Shown here: positions 2,824 through 28,683 of the stretch, in pieces
Layout of the letters: the number at the start of each line of letters is the position of its first letter
Numbering within the stretch: position 1 is the first letter of the stretch
NCBI GenBank assembly: GCA_001593935.1
Contig: LUCE01000023.1
Span: 1 to 35,641, forward strand
Direction of reading: 5' to 3'
DNA from: Candidatus Bathyarchaeota archaeon B26-2
GTDB lineage: Archaea; Thermoproteota; Bathyarchaeia; Bathyarchaeales; B26-1
DNA length: 35,641 nt
Program-made: the position numbers and the translations under genes
The notes under the pieces: model-generated
Told to the model about the DNA's origin: nothing
What the model saw: only the letters and a program-made list of their open reading frames with translations
Database searches by the model: none

Positions 2824-3117
2824 TTACTCCTTTAGGGACTCTAATATCTTTGCAACCTCTTCGACAGGACGTTTGATATTCATTTTGATGTAAACAAGCG
2901 TCTCCGAGTCTTCCGGCGTGGTTTTGGCGGTCTTCAGTTCCAATTCAATCGGTCTTTTAGCTGTGGTACGTCGAACTATCTCCGTGAGGTTATGGGTGAT
3001 CTCCTCTAGCCTTTCGATTATTCCGTCCAGAGTCTTCTCGTGTTCCGTCAAAGTCGAGGCTAATAGGTCTAAATACGCGAATTGAGGCTTTCTCTCTTCC
3101 CTGTCCTCTCCGCTCAT
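2824..3117 (-). CDS. Small EHEK-family coiled-coil protein (copy 2)
   Basis: A 97-residue relative of the proteins at 211-492 and 27342-27623. It has the same N-terminal helix (AYLDLLASTLTEHEKTLDGI) and the same C-terminal block (DSETLVYIKMNIKRPVEEVA) ending in ILESLKE, with a diverged linker. It starts with ATG at 3117, with GGGG six bases upstream, 40 bases beyond the end of the frameshifted winged-helix gene, in the same gene order as the first module. Unlike the winged-helix gene, this gene differs greatly from copy 1, so the two modules are old and only the winged-helix part has been kept identical. No known function. Confidence 0.85.
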   Translation of the reverse strand: MSGEDREERKPQFAYLDLLASTLTEHEKTLDGIIERLEEITHNLTEIVRRTTAKRPIELELKTAKTTPEDSETLVYIKMNIKRPVEEVAKILESLKE

Positions 3118-13677: not shown

Positions 13678-13704
13678 GTATGTATAGAAAAGCTACACAC
13701 AAAT
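13678..13704 (+). promoter_or_regulatory. Shared dyad operator, site 1 (upstream of 13769 gene)
   Basis: GTATGTA (13678-13684), eight bases, then CTACACACAAAT (13693-13704). The arms GTATGTA and TACACAC form an imperfect dyad. A TATA-like CTTTTTAATG begins right after it at 13705, and the start at 13769 is about 55 bases further. Identical spacing is seen at 17887-17913 and 18619-18645. A site directly next to the TATA box suggests a regulator that helps or blocks TBP/TFB (inference). Confidence 0.75.
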
Positions 13705-13768
13705 CTTTTTAATGCTTATCTGAGACTTCTTGAAACGTGACTTAACAAAATAACTCGTGGGATGTTCC

Positions 13769-14368
13769 ATGTCAGATAAAATGGAGGAGATGGAGTCTAC
13801 AGAGGAAGAACTTTTCAGTTATCCATTCTTTCTTCAAGATGAAGAAGCAAACAGCGAGAAAGTTAAGGAGATAGAAGAGAAATTCTTCAATTTGCTCAAG
13901 GTAATAAACGAGGATACCAGACAATTAAGCGAATTTCTGGTAGAGGAAGAGAACCTAGTAAAGGAGATATGTGCCTGCTTGAAGGACATCTTCTATCGGT
14001 TGGATTTATCAGTCACTCTACCGACGAAACACTTCTCAAATCTCAAAGAGTATAAGGAGATCATCCTGAACTCTCAAGGACACCTTATATTTCTGGATAA
14101 GGAAGGCGCCGTCGAGTCGAAGAGTTTGGAGAGTTATCCGCCAGAGATCATCCTAACAGTGGTCTGGGGAGTCATACCGAAACTTAGAGAAACCGTCAAC
14201 GACTACATGAGGAAGGTCAACTTCAGACTTAACTTCTTCGAGAAGATAAACGAGGAGTTCAAGAGCATCCAAAAGTCCTTAGAGGCCTCCAAAGAGGGCG
14301 CCATAAAAAGTTCGTATGACGACTTTCAGCAGAAGAGCATCAGAGAAGTCATACTATCGAAAAAATAG
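13769..14368 (+). CDS. Unrecognised acidic helical protein
   Basis: 199 residues, mostly helical and charged, with no membrane segment or signal. The N-terminus is strongly acidic (MSDKMEEMESTEEELFSYPF), followed by helices with Glu/Lys periodicity (KVKEIEEKFFNLLKVINEDT) and a short hydrophobic stretch (EIILTVVWGVIPKLRETVND). I do not recognise the family. ATG 13769 is chosen; GTG 13757 in the same frame would add four residues. The start lies behind dyad site 1, and the next gene (14425) follows in 56 bases, so the two are probably one operon. Position beside the AAA+/vWA genes and the shared dyad suggest a role with them. Confidence 0.75.
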   Translation: MSDKMEEMESTEEELFSYPFFLQDEEANSEKVKEIEEKFFNLLKVINEDTRQLSEFLVEEENLVKEICACLKDIFYRLDLSVTLPTKHFSNLKEYKEIILNSQGHLIFLDKEGAVESKSLESYPPEIILTVVWGVIPKLRETVNDYMRKVNFRLNFFEKINEEFKSIQKSLEASKEGAIKSSYDDFQQKSIREVILSKK

Positions 14369-14424
14369 AGCCTAAAGGAGAACGTGAAGGACGCGGGATA
14401 AGTGTAACCGCTGAGCTGTAAAAG

Positions 14425-15030
14425 ATGACCAAGGTCTTCCCGTTGGAGATCAAAGACTTTTACTCCCTAAAAGAGCTGAACTCCTTCATCGACAAGGAGA
14501 TCAGTTGGTACGAGTTCGTCCTAAAAGAGTACAACCAACATTTAGGGTCTCTCTTAAGAGAACAGGGAGAAGGCCAAAACGAAGAGGAACTACTCAAAAA
14601 ACTTCGGGAGAAAGGTTTCACTTCTCAAGAGAAGAAGCGGAAGAAGAAGGGCAAAGGCAAGAAAACAGAGGAGGCCGAGTCGAGAAACTGGTTCACATTT
14701 AGAAGTATAATGTTCTCAGCCAGCAAGGAGAGCAGAGCAGAGATCTACTTCGAGGCCGTGGAGAAGATCAAGAGCAATCTTGAACGCTTGAAGGAGGTCA
14801 AAGCTTTGATCGAAGAGCTTATGAAGGCCGGGTTAGGCTCAGACCTGATCTACTCATCGTATCTCGTCGACGGAATTCCCCAAAAGATAGTCATTCAACA
14901 GCGGAGAGAATCTGAAGGAATTAAATACAGGTTCGAGATCGATCTCTCCACAAGCGTGGATGCCACTAGGCCATCCGCCGAGTCGCCTGAGGAAACCGCC
15001 CTAAGCGAGGAGGCGATCGCTACATCATAG
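14425..15030 (+). CDS. Unrecognised coiled-coil protein with Lys-rich loop
   Basis: 201 residues. An N-terminal helical region (EIKDFYSLKELNSFIDKEIS), a very basic low-complexity loop around 72-85 (KKRKKKGKGKKTEE), a second helical region (YFEAVEKIKSNLERLKEVKA), then a beta-like segment (DGIPQKIVIQQRRESEGIKY) and an acidic Ser/Glu/Ala tail. No known family is recognised. It is the second gene behind dyad site 1, and its last 11 bases overlap the end of the convergent vWA gene. A cytoplasmic partner of the vWA/AAA+ pair is possible but unproven. Confidence 0.72.
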   Translation: MTKVFPLEIKDFYSLKELNSFIDKEISWYEFVLKEYNQHLGSLLREQGEGQNEEELLKKLREKGFTSQEKKRKKKGKGKKTEEAESRNWFTFRSIMFSASKESRAEIYFEAVEKIKSNLERLKEVKALIEELMKAGLGSDLIYSSYLVDGIPQKIVIQQRRESEGIKYRFEIDLSTSVDATRPSAESPEETALSEEAIATS

Positions 15031-16747
15031 AGGTGTACTGGAAGAACGTCTTTACAAAACTTTTCATGAGCTCGTAAGGGTTTCTAACTATACAAGAGAC
15101 CGGAAAATAATTCTTTACTCCCTCACTGTTAATTCCAATACCAATTATGTGCATACCCGATCTTATGACGGTCTTAACGCGGTTCTTCAACTCCTCATCT
15201 ATATTTTTATATCCTATGGGGAAGGCGTCGGAGACCACCAACAGAATCTTCGCCTCCTCGTATCGACCCCTTAAAGAGTCTGAGGCTACTTTTATCGCGT
15301 CGGGCAGGTAAGTCATTCCGCTGTGTTCTATTCCACCTATCCTTGCACATACAGTTCTAGAATAGTTCTCCGAGAAGTCCTTTATTATATAGAATCTGTC
15401 GTTGAAGGCGAAGATGCTCCACGAATGCTTATCTAAGAAGAGCTTTCTAGCAACTTCAGCTAAGCTTAAAGCCACGTCTCTAACTTCTCCAGAGAAGGCT
15501 TTGAGGCTGGTACTCGCATCGACGAGGATTATCCAAGCTTGTTTCCTGTACCTCAGTTCATCCTCCACGAAGACGTCGCTACGTTGACTCTGGCTTGCGA
15601 TCACTTGAACGGCCTCCTGAAGGTCTAAGTATCCGCTCTCCCTCCTGAAGTCTTCACCTGCAACGTTATAGTACACGCTGAGCCTGTTCAAGATTCGGCG
15701 GATACCCTTGGAGAGAGCCTCTTTCCGAAGAATATATTTGGCATAATCCTCCTCCGGAAAGGCGAAAGACTTGAAGTGTGTACCGCTACCCAACTCCCTA
15801 TACTTCGCAAGTATCTTCTCTTCAGACCTCTTCTTTCTATCCCAATCCCAGATAGCTTGGGTTGCCTCTCTCCTAGTCGACTCCATGTTAAGGTCGATCT
15901 TGAGCCTCAGTCTGGATTTCATTCTCTCGATAGTCTTCTCTAGCTCTTCCTCATCGGGCAAAGTTTTATAGAAGAGGGAGTTTCTACTCAGATGGTTCAT
16001 GTACAGAAACGAAGGAATCTCCGTTATCGGGCCGTGATTCGAGATCGCCTCATATACCGCGGATGCTGTTCTCAACTTTTCCGGCTCATTCATAATTGGG
16101 GATAAATCCGTGTCTCCCTTCTCCTTTTTTCCCAAGTAGGATTTAATCAACTTCTTTTCTAATTTTCTAACCGTTGAAACAGTGGCTTTCACATCTTTCA
16201 CCATTTCTTCCGGGAGATTTCCTTTGATCATGGATGTCTTGTAATAGGTTAGTACCGAAGACGCGAAACGAACTCCATTGTTTCTCAAGACATCGACGGG
16301 TTTCATTAGTAGGTAGGAGATGGCGTCGGCGATCTTTATCTCTGGTAAGAAGGGCTGGTAGAACGCCTTGACGTAAGCGTTTATCGCCGCGTCCTCGATG
16401 AGGTTTATCACGTATAACGCCCTCTCTTCGTCTTTACCTTTAACCCAGTCTGGATACAACTCGATGTTCGAGGCTGCAACATAGAAACTCAAATAATAGA
16501 CTGACGCCTTGAAGAGGGTCCAGAGGATGTGAACGTCGTTTGCACTGGCCAGATCGAAGAGCATCCCTTGGTAAGTCACAAACTTATCCTTCACCTTCCT
16601 CATCTTGGGTAGAAAGATTATGAATCCGTCATCATCTTTTCCGAGGAATGGAAACTGAACCTCATCTCGGATAAGTATCTTCACTTCACCGGGTTTCTTC
16701 TTGGTGATCTCGTAGGATGTAAACCAAGCGAACTCGTAAGGGTTCAA
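15020..16747 (-). CDS. CbbO/NorD-like protein with C-terminal vWA domain
   Basis: 575 residues with no signal peptide. The first 400 residues are mainly helical and charged. The C-terminal vWA domain starts at about residue 402 with AWIILVDASTSLKAF; MIDAS residues are DASTS (410-414), Thr in SGMTYLPDA (about 479) and Asp in LLVVSDAFPIGY (about 507). It follows the AAA+ gene by 25 bases. Pairs of a CbbQ/MoxR AAA+ ATPase with a CbbO/NorD-type vWA protein act as chaperones that remodel or insert cofactors into target enzymes; here the likely clients are pilus proteins, by position only. TTG 16747 has GGTGG seven to eight bases upstream. Confidence 0.83.
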   Translation of the reverse strand: MNPYEFAWFTSYEITKKKPGEVKILIRDEVQFPFLGKDDDGFIIFLPKMRKVKDKFVTYQGMLFDLASANDVHILWTLFKASVYYLSFYVAASNIELYPDWVKGKDEERALYVINLIEDAAINAYVKAFYQPFLPEIKIADAISYLLMKPVDVLRNNGVRFASSVLTYYKTSMIKGNLPEEMVKDVKATVSTVRKLEKKLIKSYLGKKEKGDTDLSPIMNEPEKLRTASAVYEAISNHGPITEIPSFLYMNHLSRNSLFYKTLPDEEELEKTIERMKSRLRLKIDLNMESTRREATQAIWDWDRKKRSEEKILAKYRELGSGTHFKSFAFPEEDYAKYILRKEALSKGIRRILNRLSVYYNVAGEDFRRESGYLDLQEAVQVIASQSQRSDVFVEDELRYRKQAWIILVDASTSLKAFSGEVRDVALSLAEVARKLFLDKHSWSIFAFNDRFYIIKDFSENYSRTVCARIGGIEHSGMTYLPDAIKVASDSLRGRYEEAKILLVVSDAFPIGYKNIDEELKNRVKTVIRSGMHIIGIGINSEGVKNYFPVSCIVRNPYELMKSFVKTFFQYTSMM

Positions 16748-16772
16748 AAGTTAGCCACCGTTGAGCGTCTTC

Positions 16773-17846
16773 CTACGTGAAGTAGCTCTTGATTATCCTT
16801 CTAACTATGTCTTGTATCTCAACATCGTCGCTTGTAGTTCCAATTATACTTTCTTCAGCCGCCTCTAAGGGTGTGCTTCCATCGGCTATCAGGACAGCCC
16901 AGTTTATCAAGTCTCCCGGCGAGGGGCCGTACGGAAGATCTCCAGCCTTATACTGCCTTCGTAGCTCCGCGCCTGCGCGAACAATTCTTGTGGCGGTATC
17001 CTCATCTACTCCACTCCGCTTCTGGACGAGCTTTATCTCATCCGGAGATATCTGGTTTCCTACGCTGAGGTAATCAAAGTTTATCCAGACCGACATCCTA
17101 CGTCTGAAGGCTGCGTTTAGAGGCTTAGTTCCAACGAACTCGCTTGAGAATGGGTTCATGGAGATTATGACGTATCCGTATCGGTGTCTATTAACAACTT
17201 CGTTGTCCTTCTCCGTGAGAACTATATGGCCTCTCGTGTCGAGGATCGGGTTTAGACGTGCCGCGATGTCCTGCTTCATCATGTTCGCCTCGTCGAGGTA
17301 GAGGATTCCCCCAGTTCTGCACCAGAGGATTATCTGCCCGTCGATCCAGTTTTCCTTACCGAGGCCGATGTACCTCCCGCAGAGGTCGTAGGTTGACGTC
17401 TGCAACCCGCAGTTGATCTCCCATATCGGCAACCCCGTAAGCTCAGCGATGAAGTAGACGATGTGAGTCTTTCCCGTTCCGCTCGGCCCAATAAGGGCGC
17501 ACTGCTTAAAGTAGTACAGCGCCCTAACGATCTGTTTCACGTAGTTCTTTCCGGGAGGCGTTATGTACTCCGGCACGTTCGAGGGGATCATATCCCTTAC
17601 AGAGTCTGGAAACCTATAATTGGGGTGTAAGTTATACTTCGCTATGCCATACTTCTCCAAGAGCTCCGGCCTAGAAAGCGACTTCTTTATCACTAAATTC
17701 AGCCTCGTCCTCTTGAGTCTGGTGTTGATCCGGGTTTCCACGTACTCGGGAATCTCAGCAACACTCTTCAGACCTTGGCTTCCGTACCCTAACGAGGCTT
17801 TCTCCTCTTGCTGACTAGCTGTAGAACTGTTCATCGATGGAAGCAC
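16773..17846 (-). CDS. CbbQ/NirQ/MoxR-type AAA+ ATPase
   Basis: 357 residues. Walker A GPSGTGKT (120-127), Walker B ILYLDEAN (181-188), sensor 1 IISMNPF and an Arg-finger region AAFRRRM (245-251). The stretch DLCGRY...WIDGQIILWCRTGG is close to the CbbQ/NorQ pattern (DLxGRY...WxDGPL...AxRxGG). Such ATPases work with a vWA protein, encoded here just downstream (15020-16747). The start may be GTG 17846 or ATG 17834; a GGAGG lies too near the GTG and rather far from the ATG. A TATA box (TATTAAAAAA, minus strand, 17874-17883) and dyad site 2 sit directly upstream. Confidence 0.9.
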   Translation of the reverse strand: MLPSMNSSTASQQEEKASLGYGSQGLKSVAEIPEYVETRINTRLKRTRLNLVIKKSLSRPELLEKYGIAKYNLHPNYRFPDSVRDMIPSNVPEYITPPGKNYVKQIVRALYYFKQCALIGPSGTGKTHIVYFIAELTGLPIWEINCGLQTSTYDLCGRYIGLGKENWIDGQIILWCRTGGILYLDEANMMKQDIAARLNPILDTRGHIVLTEKDNEVVNRHRYGYVIISMNPFSSEFVGTKPLNAAFRRRMSVWINFDYLSVGNQISPDEIKLVQKRSGVDEDTATRIVRAGAELRRQYKAGDLPYGPSPGDLINWAVLIADGSTPLEAAEESIIGTTSDDVEIQDIVRRIIKSYFT

Positions 17847-17886
17847 ACCCTCCTTTTATCTTCTCGGTTCTTGTTTTTTAATAGTA

Positions 17887-17913
17887 GTATGTAGCTTGGA
17901 CCTACGCACAAAA
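17887..17913. promoter_or_regulatory. Shared dyad operator, site 2 (AAA+ operon / SecB-like gene)
   Basis: GTATGTA (17887-17893), eight bases, then CTACGCACAAAA (17902-17913). Read on the minus strand, the dyad stops three bases before the TATA box TATTAAAAAA (17883-17874) of the AAA+/vWA operon. The divergent SecB-like gene starts 88 bases away on the plus strand, where I see no convincing TATA box, so control of that gene is less clear. Confidence 0.72.
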
Positions 17914-18000
17914 GGAAAATTGGCGATAACAAAACTTGTTTGGTTAGCGCGCGTTAGAAGTTTGCTTGAGAGATGAAACGACCCGGATAGGAGAAACTAC

Positions 18001-18441
18001 GTGACGATGACGGTACCGGAAGATGCGATAGAGGTTAAACTCTTAAACGTGGCAGGCACTCGGCTGACTGGAGAGAATCCTACAGGCGCGCAGCCCGAAT
18101 TTGATGTGAATGTAAAGTTAGAGGAGATCGAACGGAGAACCGGGGAGGCAGCCTTCGACTTTAAGTTAACGGTAAACACCAAACCGAGCGTTGTAAGGTT
18201 TGATGTGAATGGCATAGTGAACGTAAATAGCGGAGGCGATGATATAGAGAGAATCCTTCAGCCAGACCCCGAGACTAAAGTTCCCCCCATACTACACAGA
18301 ATCTACCAACAGGTCTTTCTGTCGATCTTCCTCCTAGCCGGGATCATAAACGCTCCTCATCCCCCTCCAGACCTAATATTCTCCTCTGTTAAGAGCGAGG
18401 TAGTTCAACCCTCCGAGAAGGAAGAACAATCCGAATCGTAG
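18001..18441 (+). CDS. SecB-like protein (paralogue of 1758-2198)
   Basis: 146 residues. Beta strands (IEVKLLNVAGTRLTG; PEFDVNVKLEEIERR; FDFKLTVNTKPSVVRFDVNG) are followed by PPILHRIYQQVFLSIFLLAG and APHPPPDL, then an acidic tail. The plan matches the SecB-like fold and the protein at 1758-2198. GTG 18001 is chosen because AGGAG lies seven bases upstream; ATG 18007 is possible. It is divergent from the AAA+/vWA operon and lies before the locus B pilin. A chaperone that keeps prepilins or other exported proteins unfolded is a reasonable guess, not shown. Confidence 0.68.
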   Translation: MTMTVPEDAIEVKLLNVAGTRLTGENPTGAQPEFDVNVKLEEIERRTGEAAFDFKLTVNTKPSVVRFDVNGIVNVNSGGDDIERILQPDPETKVPPILHRIYQQVFLSIFLLAGIINAPHPPPDLIFSSVKSEVVQPSEKEEQSES

Positions 18442-18618
18442 GAACGTTTCTAGACTGCTAAGAAAAACGTCAGAAAATAGAGGCTTAAACAGTTTTTCTA
18501 GTAAAGATTACTTCTGCAGAAAGCATAAATATCCAACTGGAGTAATCCACGCTTACAGAAATGTAGGCGCTGCGAGAAACCGGCTGGCGCTGATGAAGCA
18601 CAGTTCTCTTATCTTTTT

Positions 18619-18645
18619 GTATGTATCTGTAATCTACGCACAAAT
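18619..18645 (+). promoter_or_regulatory. Shared dyad operator, site 3 (pilin B promoter)
   Basis: GTATGTA (18619-18625), eight bases, then CTACGCACAAAT (18634-18645). A TATA-like TAATATTTTAAG follows at 18648-18659, and the pilin ATG is at 18690, so the leader would be about ten bases. Same spacing and orientation relative to the TATA box as site 1. Confidence 0.75.
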
Positions 18646-18689
18646 TCTAATATTTTAAGTAAATCCTAACAGTGAACCAGTGAAAAAAT

Positions 18690-19253
18690 ATGAGACTGCT
18701 AAGAAATAAGAAGGCGCTCAGCAACGTGACTTCCACACTGATCCTTCTAGTGGTTTCAGTGTTGCTGGCAGGAGTCGTAACATTGTACGCAACGAACGTC
18801 ACCATGACTAGAACCCAGCAGGAAGAGCTGAAGATAACGAAGCAACACATTTGGGTATACGAGAACGGTACTACTTTCGCAGGTTTCGTGATAGATAACG
18901 TCGGCGGAAAAGACATCGTGATAGACAAGATACAGGTCAGAGGTGTTGAGGCAAGCTGGACGAGTGTCTACTACTATAGGTCTTCAAGCTCGGTTACTGC
19001 CGACCTTGTCTGCCCCAACTCGAGTGGACACAGCTGGACTAACTTCCAATACGACGGAACCAACGTGGCAACCTTCACTCAAGGCACGGCTAACCAAGAC
19101 ATAACGTTGGCTTCAGGAGGCACCCTTGTGGTCTACATAACCAGCCCCGACAACATCAGCTCGAATGACATAGGAACGTCTGTCGGTATAACTGTCTTCA
19201 CCATGAACGGTCAATGGTACGTTGAATGCAACGTTGAGACAGCTGAAAGCTAG
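18690..19253 (+). CDS. Archaeal type IV pilin (locus B)
   Basis: 187 residues. The start MRLLRNKKALSNVTSTLILL has the basic leader, the KA|LS processing site and the hydrophobic helix of archaeal pilins; Asn replaces the Pro found at this point in pilin A. The head is rich in Ser, Thr and Gly, with sequons, and has a strand resembling the pilin/archaellin fold (GGKDIVIDKIQVRGVEASWT). It has its own promoter with dyad site 3 and is followed by T-runs, so it may be expressed more strongly than the rest of the locus. Likely the main filament subunit of locus B. Confidence 0.9.
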   Translation: MRLLRNKKALSNVTSTLILLVVSVLLAGVVTLYATNVTMTRTQQEELKITKQHIWVYENGTTFAGFVIDNVGGKDIVIDKIQVRGVEASWTSVYYYRSSSSVTADLVCPNSSGHSWTNFQYDGTNVATFTQGTANQDITLASGGTLVVYITSPDNISSNDIGTSVGITVFTMNGQWYVECNVETAES

Positions 19254-27341: not shown

Positions 27342-27623
27342 ATGGATTCCTCTAAGGAGGATGAAAGAGCGAGCTACAGGGACCTCCTAATCTCAGTACT
27401 GAAGGAACATGAAGAATCCCTCCACAAGATCGTGGAGAGGATGGAGAAGATATCACAGAGAATATCTGAGGCCGTCCAGAGAACCGATTCAACCGGAAAG
27501 GATGAGGACGCTAGAACCGTAGCAACAGCCCCAAAAGACTCGGAGACGCTAGTTTTTCTGAAGATCAAGACCAGCCGGCCGATAGACGAGATTGTTAAAA
27601 TTATCAACACCCTTAAGGAGTGA
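27342..27623 (+). CDS. Small EHEK-family coiled-coil protein (copy 3)
   Basis: 93 residues, the same length as copy 1. N-terminal helix SYRDLLISVLKEHEESLHKI, a linker, and the C-terminal block SETLVFLKIKTSRPIDEIVK ending in INTLKE. AGGCGGAG lies just before the ATG, much as in copy 1. It follows the Sso10a-like gene 26840 and the 46-residue frame, so this copy too is next to a winged-helix regulator. The function is unknown. Confidence 0.85.
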   Translation: MDSSKEDERASYRDLLISVLKEHEESLHKIVERMEKISQRISEAVQRTDSTGKDEDARTVATAPKDSETLVFLKIKTSRPIDEIVKIINTLKE

Positions 27624-27660: not shown

Positions 27661-28683
27661 CTATAGGTTTAAGCGCATCTTCAATCCTTTAGTGACTTTT
27701 TCGTCTTCCGCTGAGAAGAAGCGCAATATCCTCAGAGCTTTGATTATCTCCTTCTGGTTGGTCCACATAGCTCGGAACTCCTTCTTGTTATCGATGTGAT
27801 CTTCAAGAAAGAAGAGGAGTTCTTCTTCGTCTACAAGTATGAAGCTCGGAATGTTCAAGTCTGTATACGAGAATTCCCCCTTGTTCAGCCGAATCTTCTT
27901 CACGATGAAATGACTCTTCAAAGAGTAATTGGTCAACAGCTTCACGTTGACCCTTCGGGAGCTTCTCCTGAGATCGTCCAAGACCCCGGAATGGAACATT
28001 TGGAAAAGCTTATCGTCAGTAGCCACTATGAAGACCTCTTTTTTGGCGTTTCTTATGATCTCGGACGCCTTCGCGTTTATCCGAAGCATACCTTTCAATA
28101 CCTGGAAGGACTCCTTCTCCACCTCGGAGCTCTCTGAGGGACGGGGTAAAGAGAGCCATAACTTCACGATCTCTTCTTTCGCCTTCTCGAGGAGCATCAA
28201 CCTCTGTCTCTTAATCTCGATGAGGTTGGAGAGGGCTTGGTCGATCGGGAGAGCTACGAACTTAGCCGGTTTATCGAGAACCCGGTAGATCAGCCCCATC
28301 TTTTCCAGCTTTTTCAGTATCTTGTAGGTTTCAGTTCTGTGGAGGGAGAGGGCCTCTGATACACGTTGCGCTTTCTGCCCGCCAAACCTAGCGAGATAAA
28401 GGTAAACCTTGGCTTCGTTCTTTAGAAGGCCAAATTTTGATAGCGATTCCTGCATCAGCTCTATTACCGTTAACTTCTCATGACCTAAACTTGGCTTCCA
28501 AATCCCGTTCTTCTTGTAAGAAAGGATCGGTTCTCTGCCCTCGATAGGGGGGAGTAGGGCCGTTTCACTAACCGGGTCGTCTTCGAAGTTGTCAGTCAAA
28601 CTTTTGACTCCCTTCTCCAAGTAACCACTCACTCTTTTCAGCGATCTTCGATGATGGTTCAACCGAGAATTCGACGAGAACAT
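27661..28683 (-). CDS. TrmB-type transcriptional regulator
   Basis: 340 residues. After a basic N-terminal extension of about 80 residues comes a TrmB winged helix (LSKFGLLKNEAKVYLYLARF ... RVSEALSLHRTETYKILKKL ... YRVLDKPAKFVALP), a helical linker and a C-terminal PLD-like or sensor domain (EIIRNAKKEVFIVATDDKLF ... NIPSFILVDEEELLFFLED). TrmB proteins control sugar or other metabolic genes, and here the ligand is unknown. The ATG at 28683 is the first of the frame. A shorter start at Met77 would remove the extension. Divergent from ftsZ with a 210-base gap. Confidence 0.82.
   Translation of the reverse strand: MFSSNSRLNHHRRSLKRVSGYLEKGVKSLTDNFEDDPVSETALLPPIEGREPILSYKKNGIWKPSLGHEKLTVIELMQESLSKFGLLKNEAKVYLYLARFGGQKAQRVSEALSLHRTETYKILKKLEKMGLIYRVLDKPAKFVALPIDQALSNLIEIKRQRLMLLEKAKEEIVKLWLSLPRPSESSEVEKESFQVLKGMLRINAKASEIIRNAKKEVFIVATDDKLFQMFHSGVLDDLRRSSRRVNVKLLTNYSLKSHFIVKKIRLNKGEFSYTDLNIPSFILVDEEELLFFLEDHIDNKKEFRAMWTNQKEIIKALRILRFFSAEDEKVTKGLKMRLNL

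Follow-up and report, generated by a model that had tools for sequence, protein, structure and literature searches.

To our knowledge, little is known about how archaeal type IV pili are regulated outside the Sulfolobus archaellum. Lrs14-type regulators are small one-domain proteins. In Sulfolobus, AbfR1 and others of this type are PF01978-family regulators of the archaellum and the attachment pili and are described as never encoded in pilus loci (PMC4858521). Disruption of a TrmB-family gene in Haloferax volcanii, TrmB1 (hvo_0169), impairs adhesion; no operator or target promoters are known for it, and its authors frame the gene in terms of sugar regulation (PMC5198076). The Haloferax trmB adhesion mutant and the Lrs14-type PF01978 regulators of Sulfolobus pili are the nearest precedents for what we describe here. 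Known TrmB targets are mostly metabolic: TGM/TrmBL1 of P. furiosus and Tgr of T. kodakarensis control sugar uptake, glycolysis and gluconeogenesis. The operators described for the family are TACT-N3-AGTA, TATCAC-N5-GTGATA and TACT-N7-8-GAGTA (PMC4158304), and sites of TrmBL1, Tgr and VNG1451C activate when they lie upstream of BRE/TATA and repress when they lie downstream (PMC4158304, PMC4706686). A vWA protein (arCOG02900) paired with a MoxR/GvpN ATPase was linked to thaumarchaeal type IV pilus loci by Makarova et al. 2016.

We analysed a stretch of 35,641 nucleotides, hereafter the window, from contig LUCE01000023.1 of Candidatus Bathyarchaeota archaeon B26-2. Our joint best explanation, to which we assign a probability of roughly 65%, is that a dyad in this window is the operator of pilus B and its helper genes, that the TrmB-family protein encoded at 27661 binds it, and that binding activates transcription. 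As with TrmBL1 and Tgr, a TrmB-family regulator (here a candidate) would act through a palindromic operator that is placed relative to BRE/TATA and is common to many promoters. In contrast, the operator here reads GTGTGTAGCA-N3-TGCTACACAC, whereas that of TrmBL1/Tgr is TATCAC-N5-GTGATA, and the genes behind it code for pilins and chaperone-like proteins. The dyad matches neither TATCAC-N5-GTGATA nor TACT-N3-AGTA. Unlike the Lrs14-type regulators, the TrmB protein is 340 aa long, carries a TrmB domain at its C-terminus and is encoded within the pilus cluster. The ATPase/vWA pair at 15020-17846 is probably the same as that of Makarova et al. 2016, with the same pilus link; the TrmB regulator, the common operator and the SecB-like partner are absent from the examined parts of that paper and are added here. 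We found no published description of the dyad operator or of a SecB-like/TrmB link in the open-access literature. The features are as follows.

13678..13700, plus strand: dyad 1, GTATGTA-N9-TACACAC, preceding gene X (13757/13769)
13706..13713, plus strand: TATA-like box TTTTTAAT, 5 bases after dyad 1, recognised from sequence
13757..14368, plus strand: gene X, 203 aa (199 aa from the ATG at 13769), from a structure model and family searches
14425..15030, plus strand: gene Y, 201 aa, normally follows X
15020..16747, minus strand: vWA-domain protein, partner of the AAA+ protein, without a dyad of its own
16773..17846, minus strand: CbbQ/MoxR-type AAA+ ATPase (PF07728, 1.8e-19; PF08406, 8.5e-16)
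17874..17883, minus strand: TATA-like box TATTAAAAAA of the AAA+/vWA operon, adjoining dyad 2
17887..17909, no strand: dyad 2, common to the divergent promoters of AAA+/vWA (minus) and the SecB-like gene (plus)
17910..17924, plus strand: conserved AAAAGGAAAATTGGC element between dyad 2 and the SecB-like gene
18001..18441, plus strand: SecB-fold protein, 146 aa, from a structure model and fold search
18619..18641, plus strand: dyad 3, GTATGTA-N9-TACGCAC, preceding pilin B
18649..18656, plus strand: TATA-like box AATATTTT of pilin B, 7 bases after dyad 3
18690..19253, plus strand: pilin B, first gene of pilus operon B (PF07790, 2.9e-4)
27661..28683, minus strand: TrmB-family regulator, 340 aa, candidate dyad binder (PF01978, PF11495)

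The sequence-only reading had noticed three copies of an imperfect dyad followed by AAA. All three are present, at 13678-13703, 17887-17912 and 18619-18644; each is 26 bases long, one base shorter than the end coordinates then given. The genome scan it called for, with GTATGTA-N8-CTACRCAC across 73 contigs (1,890,193 bases, 1.89 Mb), returned three matches, all inside 5 kb of the window, and the reversed control pattern returned none. Dinucleotide shuffles of the window gave a mean of 0.01 matches, and no fourth copy was found in the window with up to three mismatches allowed. When up to three mismatches were allowed across the whole genome, the real and control patterns gave similar counts (36 vs 42), so only the three copies stand out. 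We set aside the two-mismatch sites elsewhere in the B26-2 genome, whose number falls in the chance range. These data confirm that the motif is real and far above chance.

The true unit is a symmetric 23-mer, GTRYGTA-N9-TACRYAC. Among 45 distinct exact sites from relatives, which give the consensus above, position 3 is G or A and position 4 is T or C; in relatives' sites AAA flanks one side and TTT the other. The motif is therefore a dyad, as first described, but with this symmetric core it is a good one rather than an imperfect one, and the trailing AAA, while kept in relatives, is a conserved flank and not part of the core. We counted sites with at most one mismatch and spacers of 0 to 30 in loci selected through homologous proteins, 1.4 Mb in total: N9 accounted for 59 sites, N8 for 15, N7 for 5 and any other spacer for 0-4. 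The N8 sites lie mostly in the X promoter, in lineages without an N9 site. The motif thus has the fixed spacing and the two-fold symmetry of a putative archaeal transcription-factor operator, the symmetry being given by construction of the pattern GTRYGTA-N9-TACRYAC.

The window falls in an order of Bathyarchaeia to which 'Ca. Bathyarchaeota archaeon B26-1' also belongs; the contig of B26-1 serves as our same-genus genome, G001. Conservation at orthologous promoters, proposed as a check, was borne out: the same-genus genome has the dyad at 3/3. Between the two genomes the spacers differ at 7/27 positions and the arms at 1/42, the sole arm change being the permitted T/C; dyad 1 is kept (L044, position 15548) with an altered spacer. 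The 163 genomes of the order contain 53 exact dyads, spread over 39 of them, as against 16 matches to the reversed control. About 49 of the exact dyads adjoin orthologues of block genes; one such site (L059) is a pilin promoter whose pilin is frameshifted. The exceptions are two sites inside ORFs and two in one genome (G047) before small zinc-ribbon ORFs. These last (L047, 3282-3304; L049, 3314-3336) lie in a TATA-like context away from the pilus cluster, and their ORFs are possible extra members of the regulon. In loci chosen by the AAA+ protein, with the dyad not consulted, there were 55 dyads against 0 for the reversed pattern. The regulon claim had been said to fall if the motif were frequent elsewhere or not conserved; neither is so, because in this genome the dyad occurs at the block alone, and it is kept at orthologous promoters across the order.

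Several matches were rejected. We set aside as unrelated the exact dyads in G050:C65 and G099 and most matches found beyond the order, since they fall within ORFs or in the gap of a convergent gene pair. In another order, a perfect 23-base dyad ends a phosphoesterase-like gene that is convergent with a radical-SAM gene (L226, 3433; L227, 278; L228, 388); it is terminator-like in appearance, and we regard it as unrelated. AAA loci of Nitrososphaeria carry dyads at or slightly above background, with single good sites at L143 (X) and L131, and we do not claim the regulon there.

Two counts define which promoters carry the dyad. A position-weight scan with a threshold at 99.8% of shuffles found it before 41/72 SecB-like genes, 34/78 X, 24/43 pilin B, 23/86 AAA, 15/25 C19352, 9/64 Y and 9/45 TrmB genes. 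By the same scan it precedes 1/90 vWA genes and none of the secretion ATPase (0/30), D (0/18), pilin A (0/8) or prepilin peptidase (0/6) genes. The earlier remark that no copy precedes pilin A was correct, with no score of 8 or more there in the window and 0/8 in relatives. The second count was restricted to loci retrieved with the AAA+ protein and allowed N8 or N9 with 13/14 arm matches; in Bathyarchaeia it gave 32/49 for X, 21/52 for AAA, 15/24 for the SecB-like gene and 8/14 for pilin B, with 0-0.5% in shuffles, and 0 for each of vWA, secretion ATPase, TadC and gene D. These counts indicate that the dyad marks the first genes of transcription units in one functional set, not genes generally.

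The SecB-like gene 18001 is the dyad's most widespread target in the order. Where it has relocated (L194-L207, one family), it keeps the dyad and lies between a GlcNAc-1-P-transferase-like gene and a membrane protein gene, with an AglB-like gene nearby; the GlcNAc-1-P-transferase-like and AglB-like names come from reading translations only. Of the two SecB-like paralogues in the window, 18001-18441 and 1758-2198, only the 18001 copy has a dyad. The regulon first proposed (two unrecognised proteins, the ATPase, its vWA partner and pilin B) stands but was incomplete, as it omitted this gene; a regulon widened to include it and, in relatives, Y14425, C19352 and the TrmB gene is supported. We are highly confident that the dyad is the conserved operator of one regulon.

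Another conserved palindrome, GTGTATTACGACTTGTTATATGC, lies between X and AAA in one lineage (L080, L084, L086, L102, L103 and L223), about 50-140 bases before AAA. We considered it as a diverged dyad and rejected this: the same X promoters have an N8 dyad of their own, some 44 bases ahead of the gene (seen beside GTGTATTACGACTTGTTATATGC in L080, L086, L102 and L103), and the palindrome is therefore a separate element.

Searches of 18001 against Pfam and NCBIfam models gave no sequence match. Its structure model (pLDDT 83.7) matched only SecB or SecB-like proteins among the 17 PDB matches at E<=0.001 (best E 4.4e-5, TM 0.4-0.6), and on this model it has the SecB fold and is a putative chaperone. 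Protein X is predicted to form a long helix, a small beta sheet and a second long helix, a prefoldin-like topology; it belongs to no Pfam or NCBIfam family and has no significant PDB fold match. No known family was found for protein Y. Pilin B scores weakly, far under the cut-off, against the model of UpsA of the UV-induced pilus. On the flanks of the pilus region lie the genes of three small coiled proteins that are paralogues of one another (178-492, 2824-3117 and 27342-27623).

The promoters share a geometry. At the promoters of pilin B, C19352 and X, a AAATYNTCTTAT-like sequence comes after the dyad. The TATA-like box, as recognised from the letters, begins 5-14 bases after the dyad with spacing fixed across orthologous promoters; at these three promoters it begins 5-9 bases after the dyad, and the start codon mostly lies 40-75 bases after the dyad. 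These positions place the dyad upstream of the core promoter. Each copy in the window does abut a TATA-like box, as had been claimed, but not always in the same orientation: at 17887 the AAA+ box is on the minus strand beside the GTATGTA arm, so dyad 2 is oriented differently from dyads 1 and 3. Relatives have TTTAAA where this minus-strand box sits. The CTACGCACAAA arm of dyad 2 points toward the plus-strand gene 18001, and the AAAAGGAAAATTGGC element occupies the position held by the TATA-like box in other dyad promoters.

The TrmB-family protein at 27661 is the probable binder of the dyad. It scores above the Pfam cut-offs for the PF01978 winged helix (3.4e-16, 59.3 bits, cut-off 25.6) and, over positions 3-120 of 233, for PF11495 (6.2e-7, 29.3 bits, cut-off 22.2), and it matches TrmBL2 structures over its full length (E 2e-12). 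It is an orthologue of neither TrmBL1 (32.8 vs 650 bits) nor TrmBL2 (32.1 vs 530 bits) by the NCBIfam equivalog cut-offs. Its recognition helix, SLHRTETYRILRDLEK, is nearly invariant across the order. In relatives the TrmB gene adjoins pilin B, X or the AAA/vWA pair, and in several genomes TrmB and X diverge around common dyads; at L231 and L257, from a different order of the same class, one exact dyad separates TrmB from pilin B. A TrmB gene is in the cluster at 28/80 AAA loci, 18 of which have a dyad, compared with 10/52 of the loci without TrmB (Fisher 1.5e-4, kinship ignored). Twenty loci chosen by the TrmB protein, 19 of them without reference to the dyad, contained 24 dyads vs 0 for the control. 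Within the order, 34/39 genomes with a dyad have a TrmB match (kinship ignored); the five without (G074, G075, G130, G150 and G151) are 73-91% complete. A further 44 genomes have a TrmB match and no exact dyad, in part because they carry N8 or diverged sites. TrmB, AAA+ and dyad all travel together with the pilus cluster.

We propose that, of the two type IV pilus systems, the dyad places the one with pilin B, but not the one with pilin A, under common control with several helpers, namely the AAA+ ATPase of CbbQ/MoxR type with its vWA partner, proteins X and Y, and the putative SecB-fold chaperone. The regulator would be a winged-helix dimer, most likely of the TrmB protein of 27661-28683, with each subunit bound to one half-site GTRYGTA. 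Sitting directly upstream of the BRE/TATA of weak promoters, it would recruit the basal machinery and so activate transcription. At 17887 a single dimer may serve two divergent promoters.

We lean toward activation rather than repression, which is predicted because the dyad lies just upstream of the TATA-like box, as do the activating sites of TrmBL1 and its relatives. The same regulator at the same operator might instead be a repressor that blocks TBP/TFB until an inducer releases it, so that pilus B and its helpers would be off by default. P. furiosus TrmB acts as a repressor where it covers BRE/TATA (PMC4158304), and here 5-7 bases separate the dyad from the TATA-like box, the AAA flank could belong to the BRE, and a bound dimer might hinder TFB. 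Against this, sites of TrmBL1, Tgr and VNG1451C upstream of BRE/TATA activate, and the boxes beside the dyad are weak, poor TATA matches, as expected of activator-dependent promoters. We consider repression somewhat unlikely.

A second alternative keeps the operator and the regulon and gives them another binder, either a window HTH_45 protein or another TrmB-domain protein. The window encodes four HTH_45 proteins (2417, 26840, 31596 and 32148), six TrmB-domain proteins of the B26-2 genome pass the Pfam cut-off, and the TrmB gene 27661 is 9 kb from the nearest dyad in B26-2 and lacks a dyad of its own. However, the sequence-only reading's suggestion of the winged-helix proteins of the region is not supported: 18/80 AAA loci have an HTH_45 gene, and 0/18 of these have a dyad (kinship ignored). 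The protein at 27661, recurrent in the cluster, fits far better; proteins like it are the only regulator that recurs around dyads in relatives, and its order-wide profile finds one copy only in the B26-2 genome at E<=1e-20. We therefore judge a different binder unlikely.

It is very improbable that, instead of being an operator, the dyad extends the core promoter and is recognised by an alternative TFB. The fixed distance to the TATA-like box would suit such an element, and many archaeal T4P loci come with TFB homologues (PMC4858521), but the exact two-fold symmetry, the spacing fixed at 9 (or 8), the use of both orientations around one centre and the lack of a recurrent TFB gene in the cluster all speak against it. 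Chance, or recent functionless duplication of a promoter segment, has a negligible probability: the small copy number in one genome is all that favours it, and it is refuted by the comparative data, namely the different surroundings of the three copies, the order-wide conservation with diverged spacers and the 55 vs 0 control.

This work names a very probable operator, its targets and one best candidate regulator for an entire class of mostly uncultured archaea. Sharing this operator connects one of the two pili with the SecB-fold protein, with X and Y and with the AAA+/vWA pair, and so offers a clue to what these proteins do. We see an even chance that in Bathyarchaeia a TrmB-family regulator, of a family best known from sugar metabolism, is a dedicated pilus switch with a new operator and an uncharacterised export/assembly module, which in this reading comprises the SecB-fold chaperone, the CbbQ-type AAA+/vWA pair and two novel proteins. 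In that case such archaeal pili would need a cytoplasmic chaperone pathway that has not been described for archaeal type IV pili.
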